This document shows, in pieces, positions 1 through 60,472 of a stretch of 60,472 bases of DNA. How positions within the stretch are numbered: the first letter of the stretch is position 1; every line of letters begins with the position of its first letter. Location: assembly GCA_017934525.1 (NCBI GenBank), contig JAGBJJ010000008.1:1-60472 (forward strand). Direction: 5' to 3'. The position numbers were made by a program, and so were the translations under genes. This DNA comes from Prevotella sp. Lineage in GTDB: Bacteria; Bacteroidota; Bacteroidia; Bacteroidales; Bacteroidaceae. A model generated the notes under the pieces. The model saw only the letters and a program-made list of their open reading frames with translations. It did no database searches and had not been told where the DNA came from.

Positions 1-147
1 AGTATTAAAAGTATAAAGTCTAAGGTACAAAGTCTAAAGTCTAAAGTCTAAGGTCAAAAGTCTAAAGTCTAAAGTCCAAAGTCTAAGGTCTAAAGTCTAA
101 GGTCCAAAGTCTAAAGTCAAAAAACAAAAATCAAAAATCCAAAAACC
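1..147. repeat. heptanucleotide repeat array (about 21 units, word AAAGTCT)
   Basis: The first 147 bases divide into 21 consecutive 7-bp units. Most are AAAGTCT, AAGGTCT, AAAGTCC or AAGGTCA, decaying to AAAATCA and AAAATCC at the right end. The register is never broken. The array runs into the 3' end of the amidase gene, so the last codons and the TGA stop of that gene (131-133) lie within repeat units. The same word builds the arrays inside the TonB receptor at 37857-38213 and 38405-38544. Confidence 0.9.
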
Positions 148-1021
148 TTCTCGTAATCTCTCCGTAGTCCTCGATGCGTCGGTCGCGCAAGAAAGGCCAC
201 CAGCGGCGCACACGCTCCGACCGCTCCATGTCAACGGCCACGATGATGCTCTCCTCCTCAGTAGCCGACGCCTCGTAGTACATCTCGCCCTGCGGTCCGC
301 ACACAAACGAAGAGCCCCAGAACTGGATGCCTCCCGTTTGCTGGCTCGGGTCAGGCTCGTAGCCCACACGGTTCACAGCCACCACCGGCAGGCCGTTAGC
401 CACGGCATGACCGCGCATCACCGTCTGCCAGGCGCGCAGCTGCCGCTCATGCTCGTCGTCCGTGTCGGTACTCTCATAGCCTATGGCGGTGGGGTAGATG
501 AGCAGCTCGGCACCGCGGAGGGTCATCAGGCGGGCAGCCTCAGGATACCACTGGTCCCAGCACACCATGACCCCCAGTCGGCCCACGCTGGTCTCAATAG
601 GCCGGAACCCCAGGTCGCCGGGCGTGAAGTAGAACTTCTCGTAATAGGCTGGGTCGTCGGGTATGTGCATCTTACGATATCGTCCGGCAATACTCCCGTC
701 CTTCTCAAACACCACGGCCGTGTTGTGGTACAGTCCCGGAGCGCGGCGCTCGAAGAGCGACGTGACCAGCACCACCCCCAGTTCCTTGGCCAGTCGCCCG
801 TAGATATCAGTAGAAGGGCCGGGTATCGTCTCGGCCAGGTCGAAGTTGTTCACGTCCTCCACCTGACAGAAGTAGAGCGAGTTATGCAGCTCTTGCAGCA
901 CTATGAGTTCGGCGCCCCGGCGTGCCAGGTCGCGTATGCCGTCGCACAGACGCTCCACGTTGTCAAGCATGTCAACGGTGTTATGCTGCTGCAAGAAACC
1001 TATTTTCAGTTCTTTCCTCAT
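131..1021 (-). CDS. aguB: N-carbamoylputrescine amidase
   Basis: This 296-residue protein is of the carbon-nitrogen hydrolase (nitrilase) family. It hydrolyses N-carbamoylputrescine to putrescine, CO2 and ammonia in the cytoplasm. The Glu-Lys-Cys triad is visible: E44 in VLQELHN, K117 in YRKMHIPDDP, C154 in VMVCWDQWYP. The YRKMHIPDDPAYYEKFYF block is characteristic of AguB-type enzymes. The gene lies 145 bp downstream of agmatine deiminase on the same strand, which supports the assignment. A promoter-like element lies at 1095-1102, so it can be transcribed on its own. The extreme C-terminus (FLDF) and stop codon fall in the heptamer array at the window start, so the tail may have been rewritten by repeat growth. 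Confidence 0.93.
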   Translation of the reverse strand: MRKELKIGFLQQHNTVDMLDNVERLCDGIRDLARRGAELIVLQELHNSLYFCQVEDVNNFDLAETIPGPSTDIYGRLAKELGVVLVTSLFERRAPGLYHNTAVVFEKDGSIAGRYRKMHIPDDPAYYEKFYFTPGDLGFRPIETSVGRLGVMVCWDQWYPEAARLMTLRGAELLIYPTAIGYESTDTDDEHERQLRAWQTVMRGHAVANGLPVVAVNRVGYEPDPSQQTGGIQFWGSSFVCGPQGEMYYEASATEEESIIVAVDMERSERVRRWWPFLRDRRIEDYGEITRRFLDF

Positions 1022-1094
1022 TGTTACATTAATTTTTTTGAGTTAATGACCCTTGTTGTCTGTTTCCGTTTCGTCTCATTTCGGAAATCTGCCA

Positions 1095-1102
1095 CAAAGT
1101 TA
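1095..1102 (-). promoter_or_regulatory. -7 promoter element for aguB
   Basis: The minus strand reads TAACTTTG, matching the Bacteroidetes TAnnTTTG -7 element, about 75 nt upstream of the aguB start. No clear -33 TTTG is seen. Confidence 0.5.
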
Positions 1103-1166
1103 CTACTTTTTGTTTGAAAAACCGCGAAAACAGCCCACAAATCATTCTAACCATTTAACCATTTCA

Positions 1167-2210: not shown

Positions 2211-2319
2211 CGGGTGTTTTTTTTATTAAATGGGTTGTGATGTGCCTGGCTCTCAAGGGGGTGAGGCAGAAGTCGGCAGGCGATACATCTTGTTTTACTA
2301 TGGGGGAGGAGGCTTCTCC

Positions 2320-3114: not shown

Positions 3115-3133
3115 AGCAGATAAATATAAATTC

Positions 3134-7430: not shown

Positions 7431-7435
7431 CAAAT

Positions 7436-7463
7436 AATTCTTAATTCTTAATTCATTATTCGC
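7436..7463. repeat. heptamer repeats between divergent promoters (AATTCTT word)
   Basis: Four consecutive 7-bp units: AATTCTT, AATTCTT, AATTCAT, TATTCGC. The word is the reverse complement family of the AATTAAG array at 29741. Confidence 0.7.
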
Positions 7464-10201: not shown

Positions 10202-11839
10202 GTGATACAAGAATTTCAACTGCGAGTGCTGCCCGAGGTGGCAGCCGACTCCGATAATCTGCGGCGCTACCTGGCCGACGAGAAAGGTCTTGCATTGGGC
10301 GCCCTGAAGGGCGTGCGCATACTGCGCCGCAGCATCGACGCCCGCCAGCGTACCATCTACGTCAATCTGAAGGTGAGGGCCTACGTGAACGAACTGCCTG
10401 CCGACGATGCCTATACGCCTGTAGATTACCCCTATGTGGGCGACCGCCCGCAAGTGATTGTGGTGGGAGCCGGTCCTGGCGGACTCTTTGCCGCCCTCCG
10501 GCTCATCGAGCTGGGCTATAGGCCCGTGGTGCTGGAGCGCGGCAAGAATGTGCACGACCGCAAGCGCGACCTGGCCGCCATCAGTCGCACGCAGGTTGTA
10601 GACCCTGAGAGTAACTACTGCTTCGGCGAGGGTGGGGCAGGAGCCTACAGCGACGGCAAGCTCTACACCCGCTCGAAGAAACGCGGTAATACGGATAAGA
10701 TACTGAACGTGTTCTGCCAACACGGAGCCTCTGCCGCCATCTTGGCCGACGCCCATCCCCACATAGGCACCGACCGTCTGCCGCAGGTCATCGAGGCCAT
10801 GCGCAACACCATCATACGCTGTGGCGGCGAGGTGCACTTCCAAACCCGCATGACGAGGCTTATAGTGCAGCATGCCGGGGCAGAAACTCAGAAGGTGACA
10901 GGCGTGGAGGCGCAGCAAACTATGAACTGTGAACTAAGGGCTATGAACTTCTTCGGCCCCGTCATCCTGGCCACCGGCCATTCCGCACGCGACGTCTACC
11001 GCTATCTGGCCGAGGCCCGCATAGAGATAGAGCCGAAAGGCATCGCCGTGGGCGTGCGCCTGGAGCACCCGGCGCACCTGATAGACCAGATACAGTATCA
11101 TCGCCGTGAGGGCAGGGGGCGCTGGCTGCCCGCCGCCGAGTATTCGTTTGTCACTCAGGCTGACGACCGTGGCGTCTACTCCTTCTGCATGTGTCCCGGA
11201 GGCTTTGTCATCCCTGCTGCCACGGGGCCCGAACAGATAGTGGTCAACGGCATGAGCCCTGCCAGTCGCGGCACGCAGTGGAGCAACTCTGGCATGGTGG
11301 TGGAGGTGAGACCCGAAGATGTGCCTCCCTTCTTATCTCCTCTTGAGGGGAAGCATGACTCTTTTGAGGAAGAGGCTGCAAGGGGACTTCAGATGCTCCT
11401 TTTCCAAGAGCAGCTGGAACGTCTCTGCTGGCAGCAGGGCAACATGAGGCAGACGGCCCCCGCACAGCGCATGGCCGACTTCGTCAACGGCCGGCTCAGC
11501 GCCGACCTGCCACGCGCGTCGTATGCCCCTGGGCTTGTGGCGTCGCCCCTTCACTTCTGGTTGCCAAAGCCTATCGTCAGCCGCCTGCAACAGGCATTCC
11601 TGCAGTTTGGCCGTCAGGCTCACGGTTTCCTCACCAACGAGGCCGCGATGATAGCCGTGGAGACACGCACCAGCAGTCCGGTGCGCATCGTGCGCGATCC
11701 GCTCACGCTGCAGCATGTGCGTCTCGAGGGACTCTTCCCCTGCGGCGAGGGTGCAGGCTATGCCGGCGGTATCGTCTCGGCAGGCGTCGACGGCGAGCGC
11801 TGTGCCGAGATGTGCGTCAAATACATGCAAAGTCGCTGA
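10202..11839 (+). CDS. FAD-dependent dehydrogenase (COG2509 family)
   Basis: This is a 545-residue NAD(P)/FAD-dependent oxidoreductase. The dinucleotide-binding motif VIVVGAGPGGLFAALRL is at about residues 83-99, followed by YCFGEGGAGAYSDGKLYTRS typical of COG2509 and a late FAD motif FPCGEGAGYAGGIVSAGVDG. The physiological substrate of the family is not established. The start is a GTG (MIQEFQLRVLPEVAA) placed to include the conserved N-terminus. Two stretches look inserted relative to the family: residues about 240-249 from a heptamer array (10919-10946) and a low-complexity segment at about 11330-11395. Confidence 0.88.
   Translation: MIQEFQLRVLPEVAADSDNLRRYLADEKGLALGALKGVRILRRSIDARQRTIYVNLKVRAYVNELPADDAYTPVDYPYVGDRPQVIVVGAGPGGLFAALRLIELGYRPVVLERGKNVHDRKRDLAAISRTQVVDPESNYCFGEGGAGAYSDGKLYTRSKKRGNTDKILNVFCQHGASAAILADAHPHIGTDRLPQVIEAMRNTIIRCGGEVHFQTRMTRLIVQHAGAETQKVTGVEAQQTMNCELRAMNFFGPVILATGHSARDVYRYLAEARIEIEPKGIAVGVRLEHPAHLIDQIQYHRREGRGRWLPAAEYSFVTQADDRGVYSFCMCPGGFVIPAATGPEQIVVNGMSPASRGTQWSNSGMVVEVRPEDVPPFLSPLEGKHDSFEEEAARGLQMLLFQEQLERLCWQQGNMRQTAPAQRMADFVNGRLSADLPRASYAPGLVASPLHFWLPKPIVSRLQQAFLQFGRQAHGFLTNEAAMIAVETRTSSPVRIVRDPLTLQHVRLEGLFPCGEGAGYAGGIVSAGVDGERCAEMCVKYMQSR
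10919..10946. repeat. heptamer array inside the FAD-dependent protein gene
   Basis: Units ACTATGA, ACTGTGA, ACTAAGG, GCTATGA in 7-bp register, encoding the TMNCELRAMN stretch. The same word, reverse complemented, forms the intergenic array at 49893-49948. Confidence 0.7.
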
Positions 11840-13494: not shown

Positions 13495-15987
13495 ATGCAT
13501 AGACAGATGATGAGACTTTCGGGCCTGCTGCTCTGTGTGGCGGCAACTGTGCTGACAGGTTGCTCGTCCCGCGTAGGCGACGTACAGGAGTATGTAGACT
13601 TCCTCTACAGGTATATGCCACTGCCCGATTCTACAGACTATAGTCGTGAGTTCTACGAGCAGAACGTGGCGCTGTCGCTGCAGGCACGCCGAGAGATGCC
13701 GTGGGGAAAGAGCGTGCCCGAGCGTGAGTTCCGCCACTTCGTGGTGCCGGTACGTGTGAACAACGAGACGCTCGATTCGGCCCGGATGGTTTTTTATCCC
13801 GAATTGAAAAAACGCGTGGAACAGCTGTCGATGCAGGACGCTATACTGGAAGTGAACCACTGGTGCCACGAGCACGTGACATATCGCCCCAGCGATGCCC
13901 GCACCAGCTCGCCGCTGGCCAGCATCCGCACGGCTTATGGGCGCTGCGGCGAGGAGTCTACGCTGCTGGTGGCTGCGCTGCGCAGCGTGGGCATACCGGC
14001 CCGTCAGGTCTATACGCCGCGCTGGGCCCACACCGACGACAACCACGCCTGGGTGGAGGCCTGGGCCGACGGCAAGTGGTACTTCCTCGGTGCCTGCGAG
14101 CCCGAGCCGGTGCTCAACCTGGGATGGTTCAACGAGAGCGCCTCGCGCGGCATGTTGATGCACACTCGCGTCTTCGGCGACTACGACGGCCCCGAGGAGG
14201 TGATGAGCCGCACGGCCTGCTACACCGAGATTAACGTCATCGATAACTATGCCCCCACAGCGCAAGTGACCGTAGTGGTGACTGATTCTACCGGTCATCC
14301 CGTCAGCGATGCCTGTGTGGAATTCAAGCTCTACAACTACGCCGAGCTCTACACCGTGGCCAGCAAACAGACTGACGCACAGGGCCGTGCATCGCTCACC
14401 GCAGGCCATGGTGACATGGTGGTCTGGGCATCGAAGGCGGGCAACGTAGGCATACAGAAGGTGAGCTTCGATGAAGATAAAGAAATAACTATTTCTCTCA
14501 CGTCTCACTTCTCACGTCTCACCTCGCAGGACTTCGACCTTGTGCCGCCGCCCGTGAATGCACAGCTTCCCAAGGTCACGGCCGAACAGCGTGCCGAGAA
14601 CGACCGTCGGCTGGCTGAGGAAGACTCCATCCGCAAGGCTTACGAGCAGACCATGCCCAACGAAGACTGGCGTGGCAACTATACCGTCATCCAGCAGTTC
14701 CTCAACGAGTCCCAGGACAAGGCGCTGGCCCAGCGCCTGCTTGGCGTCGTCTCGAAGAAAGACCTGCGCGATGTCACCCTCGATGTCTTGAAGGATAATA
14801 CAACGGTGGAAAGTGAAGATAATACTGCCGGAGAAATTACTGGCGAGGGGGCGGCTGATAGCCAATTATATGACAGGTACGTGCTCTGTCCACGAGTGGA
14901 AAACGAGCATCTGACGCCCTACAAACACTACTTCCGCGAAGTGCTGAAGGGCATCAAGAGCGTGGAGCAGCTGGTGCAGTGGACACGTGACAGCATCGCC
15001 ATCGTGGCCGACCGCAATCCGCAGCGCCTGCGCATGCAGCCCATGAGCGTCTATAAGTATCGGCGCACCGATGAGCTGGGCCGCGACATTTTCTTTGTCT
15101 CTGCCGCCCGCTCCCTCGGTTTTCCCGCACGCATCAACGAGGTGAACCAAAAGCCCCAATACTATAAAGACAACCAGTGGGTTGAAGTCACCTACGGCGA
15201 TGGGCAGCCACTTCTCGTTTCTCATCTCTCTGCTCTCACGTTGAAATATCTGCCCGTGGCCCACTACGATGATCCGAAGTATTACATCCACTTCACGCTG
15301 AGCAAAATTGACGAGAGCGGTCGCGCCCAGCTGATGACCTTCCCCGAGGAAGCCACGTGGAGAAACGATTTCGCCAAAGGTGTGGAACTGGAGACTGGCG
15401 ACTATATCCTCGTCACCGGCACGCGTCTGGCCAGCGGCAAGGTGCTCGCCCAGATGATACCCTTCAGTCTCAAAGATGACACGACCATTGCATTTACCAT
15501 GCGCGAAGACGATGAGGAGCCCCAAGTTATCGGCAGTCTCAATGCTGAAAATCTATATACTCCCCTTTCTGTTCAGAGGGAGATTGGGGCTGAGGCTCTC
15601 TCTCTCCTCGCCACCACTGGCCGTGGCTTCTATATTCTCGGCATTGTGGCGCCCAACCAGGAGCCCACGAACCACGCCCTGCGTGACATCAGTGCCTACA
15701 GCAGCGAGTTGGAGAAATGGGGCCGCAAGATGGTGCTCCTCTTCGAGACAACCGACGAGGCACGCCGCTTCAATTTCGATGAGTTCAGCGCCCTGCCATC
15801 GACCGTGGCATGGGGCATTGACCATGACGGTGCCATCTTGAAGGAAGCTTGCGAGCAGATGAAGCTGCCCTCAGCGTCGCTACCTGTCTTCATGGTCTGC
15901 GACACGTTCAACCGCGTCATCTTCGTCTCGCAAGGCTACACCATCAACCTCGGCGAACAGCTTATGAAAGTGGTGCGGCAGCTGTAG
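13495..15987 (+). CDS. transglutaminase-domain lipoprotein
   Basis: This is an 830-residue predicted lipoprotein. The signal sequence ends in a lipobox (VLTGC, Cys23). A transglutaminase-like core has YGRCGEESTLLVAAL (catalytic Cys), DDNHAWVEAW (His) and the following aspartate region (DGKWYFLGACEPEP). A carboxypeptidase-regulatory-like beta domain follows (VTDSTGHPVSDACVEF), then a second transglutaminase-like segment (RDIFFVSAARSLGFPARINE) lacking an obvious catalytic Cys, and a C-terminal thioredoxin-like region with no CxxC. It probably acts on cell-surface peptides or polysaccharide; the substrate is unknown. Two heptamer arrays sit in-frame in the coding sequence (14496-14523, 15212-15239). 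Confidence 0.82.
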   Translation: MHRQMMRLSGLLLCVAATVLTGCSSRVGDVQEYVDFLYRYMPLPDSTDYSREFYEQNVALSLQARREMPWGKSVPEREFRHFVVPVRVNNETLDSARMVFYPELKKRVEQLSMQDAILEVNHWCHEHVTYRPSDARTSSPLASIRTAYGRCGEESTLLVAALRSVGIPARQVYTPRWAHTDDNHAWVEAWADGKWYFLGACEPEPVLNLGWFNESASRGMLMHTRVFGDYDGPEEVMSRTACYTEINVIDNYAPTAQVTVVVTDSTGHPVSDACVEFKLYNYAELYTVASKQTDAQGRASLTAGHGDMVVWASKAGNVGIQKVSFDEDKEITISLTSHFSRLTSQDFDLVPPPVNAQLPKVTAEQRAENDRRLAEEDSIRKAYEQTMPNEDWRGNYTVIQQFLNESQDKALAQRLLGVVSKKDLRDVTLDVLKDNTTVESEDNTAGEITGEGAADSQLYDRYVLCPRVENEHLTPYKHYFREVLKGIKSVEQLVQWTRDSIAIVADRNPQRLRMQPMSVYKYRRTDELGRDIFFVSAARSLGFPARINEVNQKPQYYKDNQWVEVTYGDGQPLLVSHLSALTLKYLPVAHYDDPKYYIHFTLSKIDESGRAQLMTFPEEATWRNDFAKGVELETGDYILVTGTRLASGKVLAQMIPFSLKDDTTIAFTMREDDEEPQVIGSLNAENLYTPLSVQREIGAEALSLLATTGRGFYILGIVAPNQEPTNHALRDISAYSSELEKWGRKMVLLFETTDEARRFNFDEFSALPSTVAWGIDHDGAILKEACEQMKLPSASLPVFMVCDTFNRVIFVSQGYTINLGEQLMKVVRQL
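14496..14523. repeat. heptamer array inside the transglutaminase gene (TCTCACN)
   Basis: Units TCTCACG, TCTCACT, TCTCACG, TCTCACC, perfectly in register, encoding the linker SLTSHFSRLTS between domains. Confidence 0.8.
15212..15239. repeat. second heptamer array inside the transglutaminase gene
   Basis: Units TTCTCGT, TTCTCAT, CTCTCTG, CTCTCAC, encoding LLVSHLSALT. More degenerate than the first. Confidence 0.6.
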
Positions 15988-29740: not shown

Positions 29741-29768
29741 AATTAAGAATTAAGAGTTAAGAATTAAG
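29741..29768. repeat. heptamer array after the beta-subunit stop (AATTAAG)
   Basis: Units AATTAAG, AATTAAG, AGTTAAG, AATTAAG begin at the very next base after the TAA stop. Confidence 0.8.
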
Positions 29769-29858
29769 AAGTGTCGTCTGACGGCGAGTGATACGTACGA
29801 TGGGGTAAATACTTCCGCAGTGTTACGTTTTACTTGCAGCGAAGCGAGAATACGTCTG

Positions 29859-29886
29859 AATTCAAAATTCTAAAATCTAAATTCAA
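29859..29886. repeat. heptamer array before the gamma-subunit start (AATTCNA)
   Basis: Units AATTCAA, AATTCTA, AAATCTA, AATTCAA end 5 bp before the ATG at 29892. With the array at 29741 it brackets a 90-bp spacer in which I see no gene. Confidence 0.8.
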
Positions 29887-35990: not shown

Positions 35991-37292
35991 TCACCTCGCC
36001 ATGATCTTGCGGTCATGCTGCACGCGGACGCCGAGGCGACTGTTGGCTGGGCGGCCCAGGAGGTCATAGCCGGACAGACGGGCGGCAGCCGACGACGGAC
36101 GCCAGCCGACCGTCTCGACGGCGCTGAACTGCTGGCCGTCTGGTGGCAGGGCGAGGAAGTGGGCGGGGTTGATGTAGACTTTGTGCTTGCCTAAGAGTCG
36201 CCCGTCGGGGCTCCATTGGTAGAGCTGCCCGGCAGCAGCGAACGAACCGGCATCAGTGGCATAGACGTAGCCCGTATAGGGGTTCTGATAGATGCCGTAG
36301 GGCATCTGCATCTGCTGGATGTCGCTAAGTATGGTGCCGCCTATGAGCACCTGTTCGGTGCCGCCGGCGCCACGGGTGCGCATCACTTCGGCGGGGTCGA
36401 TGGTGTTGTAGTCAAAGGTGTACTCGCTGGTGTAGTAAGAGAAACGTGAGCCGATGGCCAGGAAGCGGCCGTCGCGTAGCGTGCAGTTGTAGGTGGCGGC
36501 GCAGCCGAGGCGCACGAAGCAGTCGGCGGCAGCAGCATCTTGCAGCGCCTTGTCGCAGTCGAAGACGAGGCAGCAAGCGGGCGTGTCGTAGTAGTCGCCG
36601 GGCGAGTTGATGAGCAGGTAGCGCCCGCTCTGCGACATCTTGCCGTAGAGGTTGATCTGGTGGGTGTCGATGGTCTTCACCACCTGCATGGTCTCAGCAT
36701 TGAGGATGCTCACGGTGGTCTCATACTCGTGGTCTTCCTGGAAGGCATAGCCGCCCGTGTTGGCTACAAAGAGGTGGCCGCGATAGAGGGCGATGCCCTC
36801 CGGCTCGAAACCCACCTCGGTGGCTGCCACTACGCGGTAGCCGCCCTGCGTGTCGATTTTTGCCACATAGCCTTTCTCGAAATACTTCATATCCTGCACG
36901 GTGCCGCACTCATGGCCGTAGCTCGAGACGTAGACATAGCGACCGTCGGTGCATAGCTTGCGGTTGTTGGGCACGTCTTCGGTGGCTGCCACAGCCGTGC
37001 CGTCGGTGCTGATGAACTGAATGATGTTGCTCCAGTTCAGGGCGATGGCAATCAGGTTGTCATTGATCTGGATGATGTCGTTGGGCGTGTCGCCCAGCTT
37101 GAAGCCGTTCTTGTCGCGAAACCACTGGTTGCTCACCACGCGGCCGTCTTCGAAGTAGCTGATGCGCCCGTTGTCAGCCTGCCAGTTGCCTTCATTGAGC
37201 AGGATGATGCGCTCTTGTGCAGCGCTAAATGATAGGTGACAAGTGATAAATGATAAACTTATCAGCAGCTTGTGTAGACATTTCTTTTTCAT
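35991..37292 (-). CDS. BtuG-like YncE/DUF5074-type beta-propeller surface protein
   Basis: This is a 433-residue secreted protein with beta-propeller blades: IILLNEGNWQADNGRISYFE, CTDGRYVYVSSYGHECGTV, GFEPEGIALYRGHLFVANTG and YVYATDAGSFAAAGQLYQW. In Bacteroides, propellers of this type (BtuG) sit beside BtuB and bind cobalamin tightly at the cell surface; the neighbouring receptor and the riboswitch support that role. The gene overlaps the receptor's stop by 4 bp. The signal peptide region is written by a heptamer array (37227-37261). No lipobox cysteine is evident after the signal sequence. Confidence 0.82.
   Translation of the reverse strand: MKKKCLHKLLISLSFITCHLSFSAAQERIILLNEGNWQADNGRISYFEDGRVVSNQWFRDKNGFKLGDTPNDIIQINDNLIAIALNWSNIIQFISTDGTAVAATEDVPNNRKLCTDGRYVYVSSYGHECGTVQDMKYFEKGYVAKIDTQGGYRVVAATEVGFEPEGIALYRGHLFVANTGGYAFQEDHEYETTVSILNAETMQVVKTIDTHQINLYGKMSQSGRYLLINSPGDYYDTPACCLVFDCDKALQDAAAADCFVRLGCAATYNCTLRDGRFLAIGSRFSYYTSEYTFDYNTIDPAEVMRTRGAGGTEQVLIGGTILSDIQQMQMPYGIYQNPYTGYVYATDAGSFAAAGQLYQWSPDGRLLGKHKVYINPAHFLALPPDGQQFSAVETVGWRPSSAAARLSGYDLLGRPANSRLGVRVQHDRKIMAR
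37227..37261. repeat. heptamer array encoding part of the BtuG-like signal peptide
   Basis: Units AAATGAT, AGGTGAC, AAGTGAT, AAATGAT, AAACTTA. On the minus strand these encode the hydrophobic LISLSFITCHLSFS of the signal peptide. Confidence 0.75.
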
Positions 37293-39835
37293 ATTCCAAG
37301 TGTTAGTGTTAGTCTGTAGTTTCGACCGGGCAGCGGGTAGCGCGGCAGGTGTTCGTATTGTTCGTTGAGCACGTCGATGACCTCGAGACAGAGGCCGACA
37401 GAGGTGAGAGGTGAGAGATGAGCGGCGGAATGCGTGTACGACAGCTTCATGTCCACATTGTTATAAGGCTTCAGGATGTCCTCTGGGTCAGCATAGCTCC
37501 ACATGCGCTCGCCCACGTGCATATAGCTGGTGGTGAGCTGCAGCGTGCGCCAGCCGATGATGCCCGTCAGTGTGTAGCTCAGCCTGGGCGAATAGCAGAT
37601 GGGCATGTTGTAGGTGTCCTCGTCGCCGGGGTCGGTGCGGTTCAGGTCGTCCTGCCACGTAAGTGATGACATCAGCGTGGCCGACCACGCGCCGCGCAGG
37701 TAATGGGCGGAGACCGTAGCGTTCAGTCCGCGACAGAAGGTGTAGCCGTAGTTCATCATCGACCACGAGTAGGTGCCCTTCAGCGGCAGGCAGACAATGC
37801 GGTTCTCTATCTTGTTCTGGTATACGTCGGCCTGTAGGTCAAGGCTGACCATAGTTTTTTGACTATAGACTTCAGGCTTTTGACTATAGACTTCAGACTT
37901 TTGACTATAGACTTCAGACTTTTGACTATAAACTTCAGGATTTTGACTATAGACTTCAGGCTTTTGACTATAGACTTCAGACTTTTGACTATAAACTTCA
38001 GGATTTTGACTATAGACTTCAGGATTTTGACTATAGACTTCAGGCTTTTGACTATAAACTTCAGGATTTTGACTATAGACTTCAGACTTTTGACTATAGA
38101 CTTCAGGCTTTTGACTATAGACTTCAGGCTTTTGACTATAGACTTCAGGCTTTTGACTATAGACTTCAGGCTTTTGACTATAGACTTCAGGCTTTTGACT
38201 ATAGACTTTAGACTTTTCTGAGGGAGTGTATTCTTTAGACCAGTGCCATTCGGCGCCGATGTTCCATTGCTTGGTGTACTCGGGCTGCAGGTTGCGATTG
38301 CCCACCTGCGTATAGTAGAGGTCGTTGAGTGTGGGGGCACGGAAAATCTTCTTGTACCATGCTCGCAGGGTGAGTTCACTATGATACCTGACATGCCTGG
38401 AATCAGAAGTCTGTGGTCTATAGTCTAAAGTCTGTTGTTTTTGTTCAAAAGTCTGTGGTCTATAGTCAGAAATCTGTAGTCTTTGGTCTATAGTCTGTGG
38501 TCTATAGTCAGAAGTCTGAGGTCTGAAGCCTGAAGTCTGAAAGGTGTATGCAACCGAGACGGCGGGCGTCCAGCGGTCCAGCGGGTCGGCGGCACCCACA
38601 TGGGCGATGGTGAAGTCGTGCAGGTGCTGGTGGAGCATTGAGGCAGCAGCCTGGATGCCGCCCGCGTTCATCTGTGCGGCCACCACCTCCTTCTGGTCGA
38701 GACGGTGCACGGTGGAGAACTTCTTCAGGTCGGCCGCCAGCTTGCTGTAGCGCACGTCGTAGCTTGTGGAGAGCGACAGCCACGGCCACGGCATGTAGCC
38801 ATAGCAGAGGGCGCCATAGCCGTCCTCCTGTCGGTAGTGGTTGTTGACGCGTGCCGTGTTCTGGTTCTCAGGGTAGTCGGTGCAGTAGCGCAGGTATTCG
38901 TTGGTGTACTTGGCGTTGGCCTTCACGCGGTGGTGGCCCGCAAACTCGTGGTTGAAGCTGGCCTGCACGAAGAAGTCGCGGTCCCACTCGCGCCCCACGT
39001 TGATATACTTGTCGCTCAGCCGGCGCACGATGCCGCCCGGACAGCCGCGCTCAGAGTCGTAATAATAGATGTGCGACGAGAAGCCGCCCTTGAAGAGCGC
39101 CCCCTCCACGCGGCCGTAGCGTATGTCGCTGTTGGCGCGCCGGCCCACGGTGTCCTCAAACTCGGAGCGGTAGCGGAAGGGATAGTCGCCCCGCGTGTCG
39201 GTCCACTCGCCGTCGATGAAGCCCCGCAAGCCATTAAGCACGCTGAGCTTTGAACTGTGAACAACGAACTGCCCGTTGGCCTTGGCCGTCCATGTAGAGA
39301 ACGAGGCGCGCCGCAGCTGCACCGAGAGCGAGTCCTTCACGGGCCGGCGTGTGCGCAGATAGACCGTGGCGCCGGAAGCATACTCCGAGGCCGACTGGCA
39401 GTTGTCGAGCTTGTTGGCGTTGTAGAGCGCCACCGACTCCATCGACGAGAGTGAGAACTTGCCCAGGTCGACGGTGCCGTTCTGGGCGTTGGTGATGCGG
39501 ATGCCGTCCACGTAGACGCCTACGTGCTGGGCGCCGAGCGACCGCACGTTGATGGTCTTCAGTCCGCCCAGTCCGCCGTAGTCCTTGATCTGCACGCCGG
39601 CGAAATACTTCAGCGCGTCGGCCACGGTGGTTGTCGACAGCGCCTGCAGGTCGGCGCCGCGCAGCGTCTGCGACGTGGCTATGGGCCGCTTGCCATAGAC
39701 CTCCACCTCGCCCACGTGCTGCAGCGAGTCAAGGTGATGACGGGTGCCAGTGCTGTCGGCCGGTGCCGGCGTGAGGCTTGCGCCACGTGCGGCAATAGCT
39801 AACAGCAACAACCCCATGAGTGTTTTTCTCCTCAT
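37289..39835 (-). CDS. btuB: TonB-dependent cobalamin receptor, BtuB-like, with repeat insertions
   Basis: This is an 848-residue outer-membrane receptor: signal peptide (MRRKTLMGLLLLAIAARGAS), plug domain (VADALKYFAGVQIKDYGGLG, HVGVYVDGIRITNAQNGTVD), then a 22-strand-type barrel ending YPLPGRNYRLTLTLGI. The cobalamin riboswitch in its leader identifies the ligand. Start set at ATG 39835; a longer reading to 40033 would translate the riboswitch. Two insertions, residues about 431-477 and 541-660, are made of heptamer repeats (38405-38544 and 37857-38213), the latter giving 17-18 copies of the peptide VYSQKPE. They probably lie in surface loops and account for a length above the 600-700 typical of BtuB. 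Confidence 0.88.
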   Translation of the reverse strand: MRRKTLMGLLLLAIAARGASLTPAPADSTGTRHHLDSLQHVGEVEVYGKRPIATSQTLRGADLQALSTTTVADALKYFAGVQIKDYGGLGGLKTINVRSLGAQHVGVYVDGIRITNAQNGTVDLGKFSLSSMESVALYNANKLDNCQSASEYASGATVYLRTRRPVKDSLSVQLRRASFSTWTAKANGQFVVHSSKLSVLNGLRGFIDGEWTDTRGDYPFRYRSEFEDTVGRRANSDIRYGRVEGALFKGGFSSHIYYYDSERGCPGGIVRRLSDKYINVGREWDRDFFVQASFNHEFAGHHRVKANAKYTNEYLRYCTDYPENQNTARVNNHYRQEDGYGALCYGYMPWPWLSLSTSYDVRYSKLAADLKKFSTVHRLDQKEVVAAQMNAGGIQAAASMLHQHLHDFTIAHVGAADPLDRWTPAVSVAYTFQTSGFRPQTSDYRPQTIDQRLQISDYRPQTFEQKQQTLDYRPQTSDSRHVRYHSELTLRAWYKKIFRAPTLNDLYYTQVGNRNLQPEYTKQWNIGAEWHWSKEYTPSEKSKVYSQKPEVYSQKPEVYSQKPEVYSQKPEVYSQKPEVYSQKSEVYSQNPEVYSQKPEVYSQNPEVYSQNPEVYSQKSEVYSQKPEVYSQNPEVYSQKSEVYSQKSEVYSQKPEVYSQKTMVSLDLQADVYQNKIENRIVCLPLKGTYSWSMMNYGYTFCRGLNATVSAHYLRGAWSATLMSSLTWQDDLNRTDPGDEDTYNMPICYSPRLSYTLTGIIGWRTLQLTTSYMHVGERMWSYADPEDILKPYNNVDMKLSYTHSAAHLSPLTSVGLCLEVIDVLNEQYEHLPRYPLPGRNYRLTLTLGI
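37402..37422. repeat. heptamer units near the receptor C-terminus (AGGTGAG)
   Basis: Units AGGTGAG, AGGTGAG, AGATGAG, encoding HLSPLTS in the receptor. Confidence 0.6.
37857..38213. repeat. 17 x 21-bp tandem repeat (51 heptamers) in the TonB receptor
   Basis: The 357-bp block is made of TTTTGAC, TATAGAC and TTCAGGC-type heptamers in unbroken register. Three heptamers make a 21-bp super-unit that reads as V-Y-S-Q-[KN]-[PS]-E in the receptor. Copies differ only at a few positions. Both strands are open across it. Confidence 0.97.
38405..38544. repeat. 20-unit heptamer array in the TonB receptor
   Basis: Units such as AGAAGTC, TGTGGTC, TATAGTC, TAAAGTC stay in 7-bp register for 140 bp. They encode the peptide runs RPQTSDY, RPQTIDQ and RPQTFEQ. 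Same word family as 1-147 and 37857-38213, but with less regular order. Confidence 0.92.
39250..39270. repeat. heptamer units in the receptor (TTGAACT word)
   Basis: Units TTGAACT, GTGAACA, ACGAACT, encoding QFVVHSSKL on the minus strand. Confidence 0.55.
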
Positions 39836-39871
39836 TGTTGCTTTTCTTTGTATCCTAAAAGGTGGTCGTCG

Positions 39872-39891
39872 GCACCTAACCCCAGAGGTGC
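39872..39891 (-). promoter_or_regulatory. possible riboswitch expression-platform hairpin
   Basis: Stem GCACCT/AGGTGC (6 bp, 8-nt loop) between the aptamer and the btuB start; it could take part in hiding the translation start. Confidence 0.4.
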
Positions 39892-39901
39892 GGGCTTCCT
39901 G

Positions 39902-40070
39902 TTGGTGCAAGAGGCAGGTCTTCTGACTTGTCGCCAAGGCTCTCGCGAACGTCTTCCCAATGATGTCAGTGACGTAGTGTTCGCGCCTGTCAATATGGCG
40001 ATTTACAGCTGCGGGACAGTCGGGGATTCTCACCCCTGTTCCCTTTTCATTCTTCTATCGAAGAAACCAA
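39902..40070 (-). promoter_or_regulatory. cobalamin (B12) riboswitch
   Basis: On the minus strand the conserved aptamer parts occur in order: AAAAGGGAACAGGGGTGAGA and ATCCCCGACTGTCCCGCAGC, then CACTGACATCATTGGGAAGA, then the B12-box AAGTCAGAAGACCTGCC. The ends TTGGT and ACCAA can pair as stem P1. It lies between a promoter (40080-40087) and the TonB receptor start at 39835, so high cobalamin should shut the receptor off. Confidence 0.96.
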
Positions 40071-40191: not shown

Positions 40192-40247
40192 ATTTTGGCC
40201 GGAATAAAATGGATTTTGGCCGAAATTTAATCAATTCTGGCCAAAAT
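40192..40247. repeat. three GGCC-centred motifs on a 21-bp pitch (copy 1)
   Basis: ATTTTGGCCGGAAT at 40192, ATTTTGGCCGAAAT at 40213 and ATTCTGGCCAAAAT at 40234. Motifs 1 and 3 are nearly reverse complements and each is nearly palindromic. The same three-part structure recurs at 56368-56423. Confidence 0.85.
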
Positions 40248-44456: not shown

Positions 44457-44469
44457 AGTCGTTATTTGA

Positions 44470-44543
44470 TTGACCATTGAGCATTGGGCATTGGCTGCAC
44501 CTTGTGGGGTAAACAAATGCTCAATGCTCAAAGGTCAATGAAT
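44470..44543. repeat. inverted pair of heptamer arrays between the P5C dehydrogenase gene and arcA
   Basis: Left array TTGACCA, TTGAGCA, TTGGGCA, TTGGCTG (44470-44497); right array AATGCTC, AATGCTC, AAAGGTC, AATGAAT (44516-44543). The right arm's reverse complement matches the left at 22 of 24 positions, so a long hairpin can form. It begins directly at the P5C dehydrogenase stop. Confidence 0.85.
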
Positions 44544-47281: not shown

Positions 47282-47309
47282 TTCAACAGTCAACAGTCTA
47301 AATTCATAA
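47282..47309. repeat. heptamer array between pyrB and pyrI
   Basis: Units TTCAACA, GTCAACA, GTCTAAA, TTCATAA, ending 3 bp before the pyrI ATG. Confidence 0.7.
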
Positions 47310-49851: not shown

Positions 49852-49892
49852 AAAGGAGTTAGGATTCATCTCATGATCCTAACTCCTTTTAT
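49852..49892 (+). terminator. arcC terminator
   Basis: Perfect 14-bp stem AAAGGAGTTAGGAT/ATCCTAACTCCTTT, 10-nt loop and trailing TT. It lies between convergent arcC and rocD. Confidence 0.85.
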
Positions 49893-49948
49893 AGTTTATA
49901 GCTCAAAGTTTATAGTTCAAAGTTTATAGTTCATAGTTAAAGGTTTGA
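49893..49948. repeat. eight-unit heptamer array between arcC and rocD
   Basis: Units AGTTTAT, AGCTCAA, AGTTTAT, AGTTCAA, AGTTTAT, AGTTCAT, AGTTAAA, GGTTTGA in perfect register, directly after the arcC terminator. Alternate units resemble each other, so a 14-bp higher order is also visible. Confidence 0.85.
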
Positions 49949-52708: not shown

Positions 52709-52731
52709 GAGGAGGAGAGAGGATAAATAAG

Positions 52732-52817
52732 AAATGAAAGATGAAAATGAGAAGCAGTCAAAAAAAAAGAACACTGCATTTCTTCATTTTCATCTTTCAT
52801 GTTTTCGTTTCTCACTT
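52732..52817. repeat. inverted pair of heptamer arrays between convergent genes
   Basis: Left array AAATGAA, AGATGAA, AATGAGA (52732-52752); right array TTCATTT, TCATCTT, TCATGTT, TTCGTTT, CTCACTT (52783-52817). The arms can pair over about 17-18 bp around a poly-A loop, forming a terminator-like hairpin. The right array overlaps the stop codon of the phosphatase gene at 52812. Confidence 0.8.
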
Positions 52818-54317
52818 AGTAATTTCCGTGATGGCTTCACCTATGCAGCAGTTAGGCTGCTGAATGTGGAGCAGCTGGCAGATGGTGGGGGCAATGTCGA
52901 CGATGTGCACCTCGCGACTGGTTGCCCCGTGGGGAATCTTCCACCCCACAAAGAGGCAGGGGATGTGAGCATCGTAGGGATTCCATTCACCATGGGTAGT
53001 GTGGGTAGAGGGCGCGGTGTCCCACCATTGGTAGTATTGTGGCTCGGGGATGGCAATCACGTCGCCCGAGCGGCCGGGGAAGTAGCCGCGCAGCAGCTGT
53101 TGCTTCAGACGGTCGGGCAGGGGAGCCGTGGCCAGCTGCTCGCAGTCTACGGCAGTGACGATGTGCGGCACCTGCTTCAGGCGGTCGGCAACGGCAGCTT
53201 TCACCTGACTGAGGTCAAGCCCCTGCTCAGCCACGGCCTGATGGTTGAGGAAGAAGCGGAAGTTCATCTCCTCGGCCACCACTGGTTGCGCGGCGCCCAG
53301 CGTGTTGGCCAGATGCTCGTTCAGCAGCTTCACTACCTGTCCTGTGTAGATAGGCCCGGCCGGCAGCTTGTGCTCGCGCATGAAGTTCCAGTTGTGGGCT
53401 GCCCCATGGTCGGCGGTGAGAAAAGCCACCCATTGTCCGGCGCCCACCTGCTGGTCGAGCTTCTTGAACAGCCGCTCCAGGTCGCGGTCGAGTGTCAGGT
53501 AGGCATCGTCGGTACGCTCACCGCGCGTGCCCCACTCATGGCCGATGACGTCGGTCTGCGAGTAGCTGATGCACAGCATGTCGGTGACTTCGCCTCGGCC
53601 CAGCTGCTCGCCGTCGATGGCAGCAATGGCCATGTCGGTGGTGATGGTGCCGCAGAGCGGCGTGTAGCCGATGCGCTCACCCGCCTTCTGCACCTCTTTA
53701 TTCTTCTGCATGGCTTTGTTCATCTTTTCCACGTAGTCGGGCAGTTTGTCCATATAGTAGGTGCTTGTGATGAAGCGCAGCGCCTTGGTGTCGAGCCAGA
53801 AGGCGGCGTTGGCCGAGTGGCCGGCGGGGAAGATGGCAGCGCGGTCCTTATATGAGATGCCTATAACCTTCGACCGGAAGTCGGTATGCAGGCGCAGCTG
53901 GTCGCCAATGGTAGTGGCCAGCAGGTTGCGTGGCGAGCGGTTGCCCGCCTTGGTGTCGCTGCCCACGGCTCTCACCGAGTCGTCCTGACACGACACCACT
54001 TTCTTCCCGTCGATGTAGAAGTTGTTGCCGCATATGCCGTGGAAGGCAGGTGTCGACCCCGTATATACCGAAGTGTGGCCGATGGCCGTCACGGTGGGCA
54101 CGTAGTTTATCAGACAGTTGTTGCACGAGTAGCCTTCGCTTATCATGCGACGGAAGCCGCCTTCACAGAAGCGGTCGTAGTAGCGGTCTAGATAGTCCCA
54201 GCGCATCTGGTCGACCACGATGCCCACGACCAGTTTGGGCTTTTCGCCGAACTGCGACTGTGCCATCGAGGCAAGGCTCACGCAGCATAGGGCTGCCAAT
54301 AGAAGGAGTTTCTTCAT
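52812..54317 (-). CDS. PafA-like alkaline phosphatase superfamily phosphatase
   Basis: This is a 501-residue periplasmic enzyme: signal peptide (LLLLAALCCVSLASMAQ), metal site VVGIVVDQMRWDYLDRY, nucleophile region YVPTVTAIGHTSVYTGS (threonine nucleophile, as in PafA), GICGNNFYIDGKKV, late metal sites SYSQTDVIGHEWG and FLTADHGAAHN. It releases phosphate from monoesters. It is beside a histidine acid phosphatase gene, suggesting a phosphate or phytate scavenging pair. Confidence 0.88.
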   Translation of the reverse strand: MKKLLLLAALCCVSLASMAQSQFGEKPKLVVGIVVDQMRWDYLDRYYDRFCEGGFRRMISEGYSCNNCLINYVPTVTAIGHTSVYTGSTPAFHGICGNNFYIDGKKVVSCQDDSVRAVGSDTKAGNRSPRNLLATTIGDQLRLHTDFRSKVIGISYKDRAAIFPAGHSANAAFWLDTKALRFITSTYYMDKLPDYVEKMNKAMQKNKEVQKAGERIGYTPLCGTITTDMAIAAIDGEQLGRGEVTDMLCISYSQTDVIGHEWGTRGERTDDAYLTLDRDLERLFKKLDQQVGAGQWVAFLTADHGAAHNWNFMREHKLPAGPIYTGQVVKLLNEHLANTLGAAQPVVAEEMNFRFFLNHQAVAEQGLDLSQVKAAVADRLKQVPHIVTAVDCEQLATAPLPDRLKQQLLRGYFPGRSGDVIAIPEPQYYQWWDTAPSTHTTHGEWNPYDAHIPCLFVGWKIPHGATSREVHIVDIAPTICQLLHIQQPNCCIGEAITEITK

Positions 54318-55718: not shown

Positions 55719-55731
55719 CTGTTTTTTGCTG

Positions 55732-55739: not shown

Positions 55740-55782
55740 CAAAATAATTTCACTAAAGCGCGTCATGTAGAGAAAAAAATAG

Positions 55783-55790
55783 TATCTTTG
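55783..55790 (+). promoter_or_regulatory. -7 promoter element for the DUF4251 lipoprotein gene
   Basis: TATCTTTG ends only 4 nt before the ATG at 55795. Confidence 0.6.
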
Positions 55791-55794
55791 TGGC

Positions 55795-56280: not shown

Positions 56281-56290
56281 CCGGGCGGTC

Positions 56291-56311
56291 GGCTGCACTG
56301 CCCCTGCAGCC
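56291..56311 (+). terminator. hairpin after the DUF4251 gene
   Basis: 7-bp stem GGCTGCA/TGCAGCC with a 7-nt loop, 10 bp after the stop; no T-tract follows, so termination is uncertain. Confidence 0.4.
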
Positions 56312-56367
56312 CCTCGGCCGCACGGCAGTCAGTCTGCAGTTGTCGGCAGTGGCTGCCGCGGGTGGAA

Positions 56368-56423
56368 ATTTTGGCCGTAATTAAAGCAATTTTGGCCGAA
56401 ATCAGACTGATTCCGGCCAAAAT
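56368..56423. repeat. three GGCC-centred motifs on a 21-bp pitch (copy 2)
   Basis: ATTTTGGCCGTAAT at 56368, ATTTTGGCCGAAAT at 56389 and ATTCCGGCCAAAAT at 56410. Same order, spacing and inverted third motif as at 40192-40247, while the intervening bases differ. Confidence 0.85.
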
Positions 56424-56499
56424 TGTAGACAATAACACTGCTGCAGGCAGACACGTGTGCTTGCATGTCTGCTGAAGCGCGATAAAGAAAGGTAAGGAA

Positions 56500-57359: not shown

Positions 57360-57364
57360 TTATA

Positions 57365-57385
57365 TCATTCATCATTTGCCATTTA
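57365..57385. repeat. heptamer units at the 3' end of the DUF5106 gene
   Basis: Units TCATTCA, TCATTTG, CCATTTA span the last codons (INGK) and stop at 57372. Confidence 0.55.
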
Positions 57386-58256: not shown

Positions 58257-58302
58257 GGTGGTGATGACTCTTTTTTATGTATGTTTTTATTCAGCGATGC
58301 TG

Positions 58303-58334
58303 CAAAGATACTCACTTTTTCTGAAAGCACCAAA
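58303..58334 (-). promoter_or_regulatory. promoter of the DUF5106 gene
   Basis: Minus strand TATCTTTG (58303-58310) and TTTG (58331-58334) with a 20-bp gap. Confidence 0.7.
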
Positions 58335-58343
58335 TGTTGCGGC

Positions 58344-58390
58344 AGGAAAAAGCAGAAGCGCCGTGCTCCCGCGGGGCATCGGCGCTTCTG
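58344..58390 (-). terminator. terminator after the fimbrillin-like gene
   Basis: 11-bp stem CAGAAGCGCCG/CGGCGCTTCTG, followed on the minus strand by CTTTTTCC. Confidence 0.8.
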
Positions 58391-58430
58391 AAGTGGAAGC
58401 GTCGGCGGGCAGCAAGCCCGCCAGAACGTT

Positions 58431-60472
58431 TTATCCTTCAATGGCGTATATCTCATTTGTTCCGCCATCCTTGAAATACTTAATCCGCAAATACATGCCT
58501 ACGTTTGAGATGTTGGTGGTCTCGAGGCGCGTAGGCCGTATGTCGTCGAGATAGAGCGTCAGGGGCACATTGTCGTTCTCAGCAATCTCAGCAGGGCGCT
58601 GCCTGAGCAAATACTCATACCAGAATCCCCAACCTGACCACGTGGCGCCATTGGCGGCATGATAGTACCAGTCTGTGCTGTTGTCCGATGAGTTGACCAT
58701 GTCGGTGCTGGCAATGGTCACGCTGTAGTAGCCCGATGGCGTGCCAGCCTGCGTGTCGCTGTAGGGGTTCAACGTCGACGAGGCCATCTCCACCTTGATG
58801 GGATACAGGCCCGGCGGGTAGTTGGCCGGTATGGAGAGGCTGAGCTGGTAGGTGGTGCAGGCGTACAGTTGGATGGCTGCGTTGCCCACTTGGCGCGTGG
58901 TAGTGGTCCGCACCAGCGTCGGCCTGGCGGCAAAGTCGAAGTGCGTGATGGAGTAGACGTTGATTTTGCGCTCCATGCCGTAATGCTTGTCTTTCAGCAG
59001 CAGCACGCCCGATGCCAACTGGTTGGTAATCTGGCTGACGTTGAAGGTGATGTTGCCCTGGCCGGTGTCCCAGTCGTAGCTGACGGCCAGGTCGTCGCTG
59101 CCCATCACGCTGAGGTCCTTGTTCGACTCCCACCTGATGGTGAAATCTTCGGCGGCAATATGGTTGCCCGACGAGGTGACGTTGCCTTCGAAGTCGATTA
59201 CGTCGTAGAGCACGCCCTGCTTGGTGACGGGGTCGATGAACGTGAAGGGGATGGTCACCTGGCCGCCGCCAGTGGGCTCGGTGAACAGCACCGACGTGTT
59301 GCCGTTGTTCACGTCGAGCTCGGCCCTGCCGTTGCTCACCTTCGACACCTCCTCGGCGATGCCCACCATCTGATTGTTGGTGAAGTTGTTGGTGGTGAGT
59401 GCCTCTTCAAAAGAGTCTACGCCCATGTTCTTAGGCAGGGCGGTGATGGTGAGCCAGTATACGCGGTTGCGCTTCACCTCAATCTGGTTCTGGTTGTTGT
59501 CAATCAGCAGCACGGCATGATACTTCTCCGTGTTGTCGGCATAGGTGACGTGTATAATCAGACGCACCGGGTTGTCAGTCTTGTTCATGTCCTCATAGAG
59601 GTAGACGGCCGACGCCTCCTTGCCAGCCTCCGACGTGCCGTCCCATGCTTTGAGGTCGCTCTCCTCAGCCGTGAAGCGCTCGTCGTCGAGCTGATACTCG
59701 TTAATCACCGACTCGCTGTCATAATGGCTGTGCCCCGTCTGCTGCATGGCCGCGGCCATCAGCTGATAGTAGTTTTCAAAGGGGCTCTGGCCCGTACCCA
59801 TCTTCGACTTGTCCATGGCAGCGATGTAACCCTTAGTGCGGCCATTAGACACACACCACTCTACCGACTTGATGCCGGCATTGGTGGCGATGGCATTAAT
59901 CTTCACCTTGGCGCGGTCGCGAATCAGGTAGACGGTATTCTCGGGGGTGCGGTCGTCGCCCTCCCCCTGTCCGGCTATCCACTCTGCCATCTCGGCAGAC
60001 GTGTCCTTCATCACGTAGCCCCAGTAGATGCAGCCCGTGTTGGCAGGCTCGTCGTAGGCGGAAGCCATCAGCTCGTCGAGCATGAGGGCATTCTCGTTTT
60101 CGGTCATCTCGTTGAGGCCCACCTTCGGCTCATAGTTTGCCACGAAGTGGATACGGGCCGTCACCTCTGGCACTTCGCCTCTCACCACGCCCTTGTCGAG
60201 GGTAGTGGTGGCCTGCTAAGTGATGTCGGCCTGACGCTTGCCCACAAAGGTGCCGTAGCGGTCGAAGCAGAGCATCCACAGCGTCTGCACCTGGCTGGTC
60301 TCGCCGGCCAGCTGGGCGCGGGTGGCCGGCTCGTTGCCGTCGTCGGGCGTTGCCACGCGGATGCATACCTTCATTTCGCCGCTGCCCGTCAGGACTGCGT
60401 CGGGACGTATCTCTTCAAACTCCGAACACGATGTGATCAAGAGAGCGGCCATCACGGCCGTCAGATATTTCC
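58431..60472 (-). pseudogene. fimbrillin/Mfa-like lipoprotein interrupted by an in-frame TAG; 5' end outside the window
   Basis: Reading the minus strand from the window edge, one frame gives KYLTAVMAALLITSCSEFEE (end of a lipoprotein signal with lipobox LITSC), then CIRVATPDDGNEPATRAQLA and LCFDRYGTFVGKRQADIT, a single TAG at 60216-60218, then QATTTLDKGVVRGEVPEVTA and on to YAIEG at 58431 without another stop. About 85 residues precede the TAG and 595 follow. A single C-to-T change of a CAG codon would explain it. The fold looks like Bacteroidales fimbrillin/Mfa or DUF4906-type pilus-associated lipoproteins. A GTG at 60188 could restart translation without a signal peptide. Sequencing error is an alternative. 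Confidence 0.7.

Follow-up and report, generated by a model that had tools for sequence, protein, structure and literature searches.

The window analysed here is a stretch of 60,472 nucleotides from Prevotella sp. (assembly GCA_017934525.1, contig JAGBJJ010000008.1), which constitutes a whole contig of a 2.6-Mb assembly with 101 contigs and 76.5% completeness. It carries, both between and within genes, tandem arrays of 7-bp units, for which the original prediction had proposed a dedicated process of copying. The density of these arrays differs strongly among genomes of the same genus, and arrays that face each other do so with a marked polarity.

Heptamer arrays in the window

The window was scored lag by lag with a cut-off of at least 9, using five first-order Markov shuffles as control and Tandem Repeats Finder (TRF) as a second caller. 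At period 7, 17 segments reached the cut-off, compared with 0.2 per shuffle. Periods 4, 5, 8, 10, 11 and 13 gave 0-2 segments each, period 6 gave three and periods 9, 12 and 15 gave six or seven each. Lags 14, 21 and 28, which are multiples of 7, also scored, and the TRF results agreed with the lag-7 excess. Among the 19 loci listed by the original prediction, 14 were recovered at lag 7 (1-147, 7436, 14496, 15212, 29741, 29859, 37227, 37402, 37857, 38405, 44470, 44516, 47282 and 49893). The other five are weaker: locus 10919 fell below the cut-off at lag 7 and was detected at lag 21 (score 9) and by TRF (36), locus 52783 was detected by TRF alone (score 30), and loci 39250, 52732 and 57365 were below the cut-off in both the lag-7 scan and TRF. 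The words indeed differ among loci, and units vary within loci.

The features are given below, with the strand where one is assigned. G-type refers to the C-poor strand, and a pair is G-first when its 5' arm is of this type.

8..147: AAAGTCT array of ~20 units at the contig edge, at and beyond the 3' end of a CN-hydrolase open reading frame (ORF) (lag-7 score 70.5; TRF)
7435..7461: TAATTCT array, intergenic (lag-7 score 15)
10918..10949: AACTATG array, weak (TRF 36; score 9 at lag 21 only)
14496..14528: TCTCACG/TCTCACT array within a transglutaminase-domain ORF, 13495-15987 (score 16; Pfam)
15212..15237: weak array within the same ORF, 13495-15987 (score 9)
29741..29770, plus strand: AATTAAG array straight after the stop of the TPP-enzyme gene (here called vorB); G-type 5' arm of an inverted pair (score 18)
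29859..29884, plus strand: AATTCTA-type array just upstream of the POR-gamma (here called vorG) start; C-type 3' arm of the pair (score 11.5)
37226..37257, minus strand: array located at the N-terminus, in a signal-peptide-like stretch (SLSFITCHLSF), of ORF 35991-37292, whose Pfam DUF5074 match is under the family cut-off (lag scan, translation)
37289..40033, minus strand: TonB-dependent receptor gene of the BtuB type with in-frame arrays (Pfam PF00593 and PF07715)
37400..37422, minus strand: in-frame array (SAAHLSPLTS) close to the receptor C-terminus (score 13.5; translation)
37857..38217, minus strand: 17-copy 21-bp (3x7) array of GACTATA/GACTTTA, chiefly a higher-order 21-bp repeat (TRF score 631)
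38403..38541, minus strand: GACTATA/GACCACA array (TRF, lag scan, translation)
39240..39270, minus strand: degenerate array (HSSKLSVL) in the BtuB-type receptor (lag-7 score below 9; seen by eye)
44469..44538: inverted pair ATTGAGC...AATGCTC, its arms separated by 21 bases, at the 5' end of an arginine-deiminase-family ORF; predicted hairpin, G-first (scores 14 and 11)
47283..47298, plus strand: TCAACAG array of just 2.3 units that follows an OTCase-family gene (score 9; Pfam)
49888..49946: AGTTTAT/AGTTCAA array with a higher order of 14 bp, flanked by a kinase gene and an aminotransferase gene that converge (score 16.5, and 27 at lag 14; Pfam)
52732..52814: start of ORF 52734-53855, with a degenerate hairpin of inverted heptamer-like type (TRF 30 for 52777-52814; predicted fold over 52700-52830 of -40.7 kcal/mol, without shuffle control)

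Abundance within the genome and the genus

In 659 kb of the window genome, including the window, we found 40 period-7 arrays, whereas periods 6 and 8 had 10 and 6, which bears out the excess over neighbouring lags by which the original prediction was to be checked. Eighteen genomes of the same genus were sampled, with 60-200 kb each except for the window genome and 2.66 Mb in total (G labels denote sampled genomes and L labels sampled loci). Arrays of period 7 numbered 172, those of periods 4, 5, 6 and 8 numbered 6, 8, 28 and 53, and those of periods 9, 10, 11 and 13 numbered 78, 19, 17 and 5, respectively. A strictly constant period, as first proposed, does not hold, since some relatives have 8-bp arrays too (G028, G009 and G048); a unit length of 7 is a strong preference. 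The 8-bp words of G028 (ACTCCTGN) are similar to the 7-bp word AACTCCT of its relatives. Arrays of 8 bp were seen at L230, L233 (G028), L248 (G048), L252 and L253 (G009), some of them as inverted pairs that are G-first.

Density among the 18 genomes, in arrays per 100 kb, spanned 0 to 33: 33 in G009, 20.7 in G059 (a biased pick), 15 in G055, 10 in G028, 8 in G044, 6.5 in G045 and 6.1 in the window genome, with 0-2 in the remaining eleven. The trait is present in many Bacteroidales samples. At least one array was found in 20 of 80 named Bacteroidales loci, and counts over these loci were overdispersed (variance/mean 3.3; 1.4 for period 8). On a tree of 81 vorB proteins, the label 'rich' (12 rows) took 10 changes (at least 7 when counted on starred branches); shuffled labels took 11.4 on average and 57 of 500 shuffles were as low as observed, so the label is scattered on the tree.

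For 200 genomes of the genus, we summed the matches to a degenerate pattern and to its reversed control, because the control also matches heptamer arrays. This score, which was tuned on the 18 samples and counts overlapping matches, spanned 0-382 matches per Mb, with a median of 25 and 19 genomes at zero, and its agreement with the sampled densities was moderate (Spearman 0.53). Three genomes that were poor by sample (G004, G010 and G053) nevertheless scored 25-40 per Mb, so that the split of the 18 genomes into rich and poor is rough. Two sharp classes of genomes are ruled out by the continuous spread of the score. In four genomes, 73 of 124 arrays were intergenic (24/40 in the window genome, 11/13 in G045, 18/30 in G055 and 20/41 in G059), with 86-92% of the sequence called coding by a simple ORF caller. 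Arrays as a cause of contig breaks were discarded (2 of 61 contig ends, with 0.75 expected).

Turnover at orthologous sites

The nearest relatives of the window vorB (28970-29740) are found in Prevotellaceae metagenome genomes (best identity 94%), and the vorB-vorG junction was compared among relatives with 90-94% identical vorB. At this junction, the window has AATTAAG with its inverted partner, L037 has a TAATGGA/AATTGAT array that fills the space from stop to start, L036 has a GTGAATA array and L038 a degenerate inverted heptamer-like structure, as judged by eye. L035 shows none and L039 shows 12 bases; neither of these two has the spacer present in the window or that of L038. The vorA-vorB junction carries an AATTGAT array in L036 and none in L038 or the window, where AAATTGATG at the same site is a possible local seed. 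As the original prediction had expected, the arrays are not fixed in relatives: orthologous sites are empty or carry another word, which indicates that the arrays are recent.

Genome-specific words

The most frequent words were AAAGTCT in the window genome (9 of 40 arrays), ATTGAAC in G055 (11/30), AACTCCT in G059 (7/41) and AACTGTC in G009 (7/20), and the AAAGTCT word of the 8..147 array recurs on other contigs of the window genome. In 129 thinned arrays from four genomes and the named loci, 12.4% of word pairs within genomes were at a distance of at most 1, compared with 6.8% between genomes, and none of 1000 permutations was as high. For 85 pattern-selected loci from seven genomes, the corresponding values were 65% within and 13% between genomes. 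The words had been described as locus-specific; they are not bound to a locus and are better seen as genome-specific vocabularies common to several loci. Over 125 arrays there is also a weak common grammar (4.70 bits per word versus 3.72, s.d. 0.06, after letter shuffling, in a control of 12 shuffles with fewer restarts and dinucleotides not kept).

Identical 28-mers occur at several loci of the pattern-selected genomes G010, G132 and G146. In G132 and G146, ATGAATT is used by 27 of 28 typed loci. G132 has three pattern matches 44 bp apart, and a dispersed element may be involved in this genome.

Facing pairs and their polarity

Adjacent arrays within 200 bp formed 48 pairs, 15 of which had one word in inverted orientation; 17 were direct (some of these a single broken array) and 16 were neither. 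Far pairs on one locus were inverted in 28 of 397 cases, so that facing arrays are in excess among neighbours (Fisher p 6e-6). An inverted pair is the same on both strands, and the identity of its 5' arm is independent of the strand shown. The G-type arm was 5' in all 16 distinct pairs of 221 loci. A separate inverted-repeat finder gave 20 G-first, 4 C-first and 2 tied stems for period 7, and 8, 0 and 1 for period 8; non-periodic stems gave 108, 103 and 25. Periodic stems thus differ from the others (28:4 versus 108:103, Fisher p 8e-5; 26:2 for the periodic ones when the four stems of L113, alternative arms of a single structure, are left out). By loop length, non-periodic hairpins were 28:17 (10-20 bases), 27:36 (20-60) and 19:12 (60-120). 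When 33 typed pairs were sorted by gene context, the ratios of G-first to C-first were 17:0 in tandem, 6:2 in convergent and 1:0 in divergent gaps, 5:0 within genes and 2:0 at contig edges.

We also searched 26 spacers against all the sequence sampled, in which the genome of a spacer was represented in part or, for named loci, by the locus itself alone: 18 had no other match, 4 matched other genomes only and 4 matched elsewhere in the same genome (three of G059 and one of G055, the latter over 89 bases at 99%). In G055, this 89-base stretch near arrays is repeated at 99% at L155 1290-1522 and L161 16968-17056, and with 12 same-genome matches in all it represents a dispersed repeat family. The search for a conserved flank motif yielded just four 10-mers, limited to one or two genomes.

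Arrays inside genes

Several arrays are intragenic, as had been stated, including those at 37400-39250 in one TonB-receptor gene and the one at 37227 in a signal-peptide-like stretch. Clear in-frame arrays number three in btuB and one in dnaE. The receptor ortholog at L008, which is without long arrays, matches 8blw BtuB1 (E 5e-82). Where L008 has GG, the 38403..38541 array adds ~50 residues, and where it has DSNHWN, the 37857..38217 array adds ~130, both in frame and without stops; at 37400..37422, L008 reads HVINKTSLG and the window SAAHLSPLTS. The 37857..38217 array is absent from the orthologs, and that of G055 has another heptamer array (CACTCAC/CATTCAC) at this site. According to the alignment, the sites of the ~50- and ~130-residue insertions are barrel turns, probably periplasmic ones. 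Repeat-only matches were present among the receptor similarity hits, and peptides of the LSPLTS, FFILHSS and QTSDYRP types encoded by arrays give false protein similarity.

The array in dnaE, the gene for polymerase III alpha of the window genome (E 2.7e-63 to 2hpi), is located as follows.

L271 (G000:C42:11422-12306) 99-129: in-frame heptamer array (TTCTTCA) in the replicative polymerase gene dnaE, encoding SSFFILHSSL just before the part aligned with 2hpi

G055 reads SSYAILHSSL at this site, without a scored array. In 15 of 16 other genomes the PF07733 hits are ~24 residues shorter, and the G059 hit starts late. Overall, 34 of 45 coding arrays are C-type in sense, as avoidance of stops would give. 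By eye, arrays form the hydrophobic core of signal-peptide-like stretches at 37226-37257 of the window (SLSFITCHLSF) and at L166 3167-3198 (FFILHSSFFIS).

Search for a lineage factor

A strong density contrast among close species makes its cause testable, and a genus in which some members have no detected trait and others hundreds of pattern matches per Mb offers a natural experiment on polymerase and repair genes. The 18 genomes, 7 rich and 11 poor by sample, were surveyed for candidate genes. One strong DnaE hit was found in each. The original prediction had suggested that a reverse transcriptase might track with the arrays; RVT_1 occurred in five of the seven rich genomes and five of the eleven poor ones, with no clear association, and was absent from two rich complete genomes (G055 and G028). 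Y1_Tnp showed no clear association either (rich 6/7, poor 5/11), and none was found in the 76.5%-complete window genome. A DinB-type IMS protein was missing in 4 of 7 rich genomes and 1 of 11 poor ones; over the 200 genomes, DinB loss did not hold as a candidate (p 0.077 for all, 0.115 at completeness of at least 90% and 0.059 at 97% or above). The MutS_V type of 600 amino acids had the same counts of absences (4/7 rich, 1/11 poor). Across the 200 genomes, those with fewer than three MutS_V hits had higher scores (31.4 versus 10.4, p 7e-6; 34.5 versus 4.8, p 1e-4, at completeness of at least 90%; 14.1 versus 4.5, p 0.047, at least 97%), in one of several tests and with statistics uncorrected for phylogeny. 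The pattern score itself falls with completeness (rho -0.25) and, at 90% or more, rises with genome size (rho 0.30). The MutS_V deficit tracks with the arrays but is confounded with completeness, and we regard it as a lead only.

MutS1 was missing in G009 and in the incomplete window genome among the 18, and its loss was set aside as a candidate, with just two genomes of at least 90% completeness lacking it among the 200. G009, the array-richest genome (99% complete, 60-kb sample), had no MutS1-type hit and one MutS_V hit. SbcD_C (PF12320) gave no match in any of the 18 genus genomes, with Bacteroides ihuae positive as control. The SbcD hairpin nuclease may be missing in the genus; being absent in 18 of 18, it cannot explain the density difference.

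Relation to known heptamer repeats

Heptamer enrichment and cases with a single word are already known, as the accessible text of several papers tells (PMC4679880, PMC4692102, PMC6749651, PMC4060949, PMC4596501). According to two papers that cite Mrazek et al. 2007, heptanucleotides are the most abundant class of long repeats in most genomes; polymerase slippage has been proposed for them, with 7 nt favoured by the length of DNA in the polymerase (PMC4679880, PMC4692102). In the parts of this literature at hand, the reason for 7-nt units in bacterial simple repeats still has the standing of a hypothesis. The arrays resemble the long simple sequence repeats of Mrazek et al. in the dominance of 7 nt, the genome-dependent abundance and the proposed slippage. 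As far as the citing papers describe those repeats, the present ones differ by their wide range of density within a genus, several words per genome, facing pairs with a preferred polarity and long insertions that keep the frame of conserved genes.

The TAACTGA repeats known from Beggiatoaceae, Cyanobacteria and five Bacteroidetes are also direct heptamer repeats, mostly just before starts, and have been proposed to act in translation. However, that system has one dominant word, whereas words here vary by genome, and polarity is not mentioned in the accessible text (PMC4679880). The present arrays were not assigned to this network (MacGregor 2015), as their top words are AAAGTCT, ATTGAAC, AACTCCT, AACTGTC and others by genome. 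The GGGAATC and GGGGA(C/T)T repeats of Xanthomonas and Nostoc are likewise genome-wide, mostly non-coding and extensively variable among close relatives, with inverted repeats mentioned; downstream of ORFs their G-rich heptamers prefer the coding strand and upstream of them the non-coding one, which is the direction of the bias seen here. Their words form G-quadruplexes and are nearly of one type per genome in the sections consulted (PMC4692102), whereas several words, mostly without G-tracts, are used here. The (GATAGRA)n satellites of Chloroflexus aurantiacus similarly scatter one heptamer word over one genome, but the accessible account describes neither pairing nor in-gene insertions (PMC6749651). 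The BrickBuilt miniature inverted-repeat transposable element (MITE) of Porphyromonas gingivalis shares with the arrays an intergenic tandem repeat in Bacteroidales and inverted ends; however, its unit is of 23 nt within a conserved mobile element, according to the portions consulted (PMC4596501), and most cases here have no conserved element. No description of the Prevotella vocabularies or the facing-array polarity was found in the literature searched, which left most subscription journals outside its scope. In our judgement, the density range and the polarity exceed an ordinary repeat report, and the still putative mechanism and the earlier heptamer literature argue against a new kind.

Origin of the arrays

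The tandem units are beyond chance, mostly intergenic and variable among relatives, as in heptameric simple-sequence arrays. We consider it fairly probable that they belong to this known kind and arise by reiterative DNA synthesis in place, whose activity or repair depends on the lineage. Runs of a 7-nt unit, and in some genomes of an 8-nt unit, would be made by slippage, stuttering or strand switching and would turn over fast, in a way that scrambles unit order. The small vocabulary per genome implies that words would either move between loci or be favoured genome-wide. Arrays would survive where added DNA is tolerated, at gene junctions or, in frame, in protein turns and signal peptides. The facing-array polarity constrains any mechanism: since the C-poor strand is nearly always the 5' arm, it suggests strand-specific growth or copying of that strand, presumably at 3' ends, and loss of repair factors may lie behind high density. 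Several observations weigh against this interpretation. No dedicated machinery was identified in the gene surveys of 18 and 200 genomes, and genome-wide vocabularies are not predicted by local slippage alone. Polarity partly follows gene orientation, because unpaired arrays in sense were 40 G-type to 14 C-type after stops and 17 to 23 before starts, and no strand bias was seen for single arrays where the flanking genes converge (7:6) or diverge (5:4). Neither copy-paste nor fold-back copying is supported by unit order: at loci with the same word, 9 of 203 pairs beat all 20 shuffles, which is about chance, the summed score for copy-paste of whole arrays between loci was 4900 versus 4785 shuffled, and copying of one arm from the other scored 320 versus 322 shuffled in 19 pairs, a comparison in which uniform arms have little power. 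Moreover, one genome per species was sampled, so that copy-number change within a species is presumed.

Ordinary slippage, common to the polymerases of all bacteria and favouring 7 nt through the DNA length within the polymerase, agrees with the reported abundance of heptanucleotides among long repeats (PMC4679880 and PMC4692102, in the parts available), but it is rather unlikely to suffice. The range of 0 to 33 arrays per 100 kb within one genus means that a property common to all polymerases is insufficient alone, which sustains the doubt of the original prediction about slippage; 19 of 200 genomes match neither the pattern nor the reversed control, and some genomes use 8-bp units too. The interpretation given in the original prediction is supported in part: the near-fixed period with many words, the turnover at conserved positions and the density contrast agree with it, whereas no dedicated machinery was identified in the gene surveys. 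Selected regulatory elements seem improbable; hairpins would then serve as terminators, as mRNA stabilisers or as binding sites, and selection at the RNA level would keep their word and polarity. The 73 of 124 intergenic arrays, the sense-strand bias after stops, the strong predicted folds (without shuffle control) and the role in translation put forward for TAACTGA repeats in the available part of PMC4679880 speak for them, but arrays also lie within btuB and dnaE, the junctions of close relatives have no array or another word, non-periodic hairpins have no overall polarity (108:103) and arms have no unit-by-unit matching beyond shuffles.

Two further mechanisms appear more doubtful still. 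A telomerase-like end extension in Bacteroidales, to which we give little credence, would add a C-poor 7- or 8-nt word, drawn from the vocabulary of the genome, reiteratively to free DNA 3' ends at breaks or stalled forks. Either a template or a preference of the enzyme, set in each lineage, would supply the word. One healed end would leave a single array and two healed ends an inverted pair, which must then read G-type 5' and C-type 3', as is observed. Least probable are non-autonomous mobile hairpins of the MITE or repetitive extragenic palindrome (REP) type, with heptamer arrays as ends and moved by a transposase such as Y1. Inverted pairs are enriched, L035 and L039 lack the spacers seen at the vorB-vorG junction in the window and in L038, G132 and G146 have identical 28-mers at several loci and 4 of 26 spacers match other places of the same genome. 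However, the other 22 spacers have no second copy in the partial sample of their own genome, no common flank motif stood out, and the Y1 transposase, present in six of the seven rich genomes and five of the eleven poor ones, was not found in the incomplete window genome.

Other repeated motifs

Positions 40192-40247 and 56367-56423 of the window have in common a 21-bp-spaced motif like AATTTTGGCCGNAAT, in about three copies of which the last is inverted; this resembles a dispersed operator or a palindromic repeat more than it does a heptamer array. The motif TTCTCGCTTCGCTGC lies beside arrays in three genus genomes (window 29845; L170 3480; L233 3886 and 4542), these sites being 4 of 43 occurrences of GCTTCGCTG.

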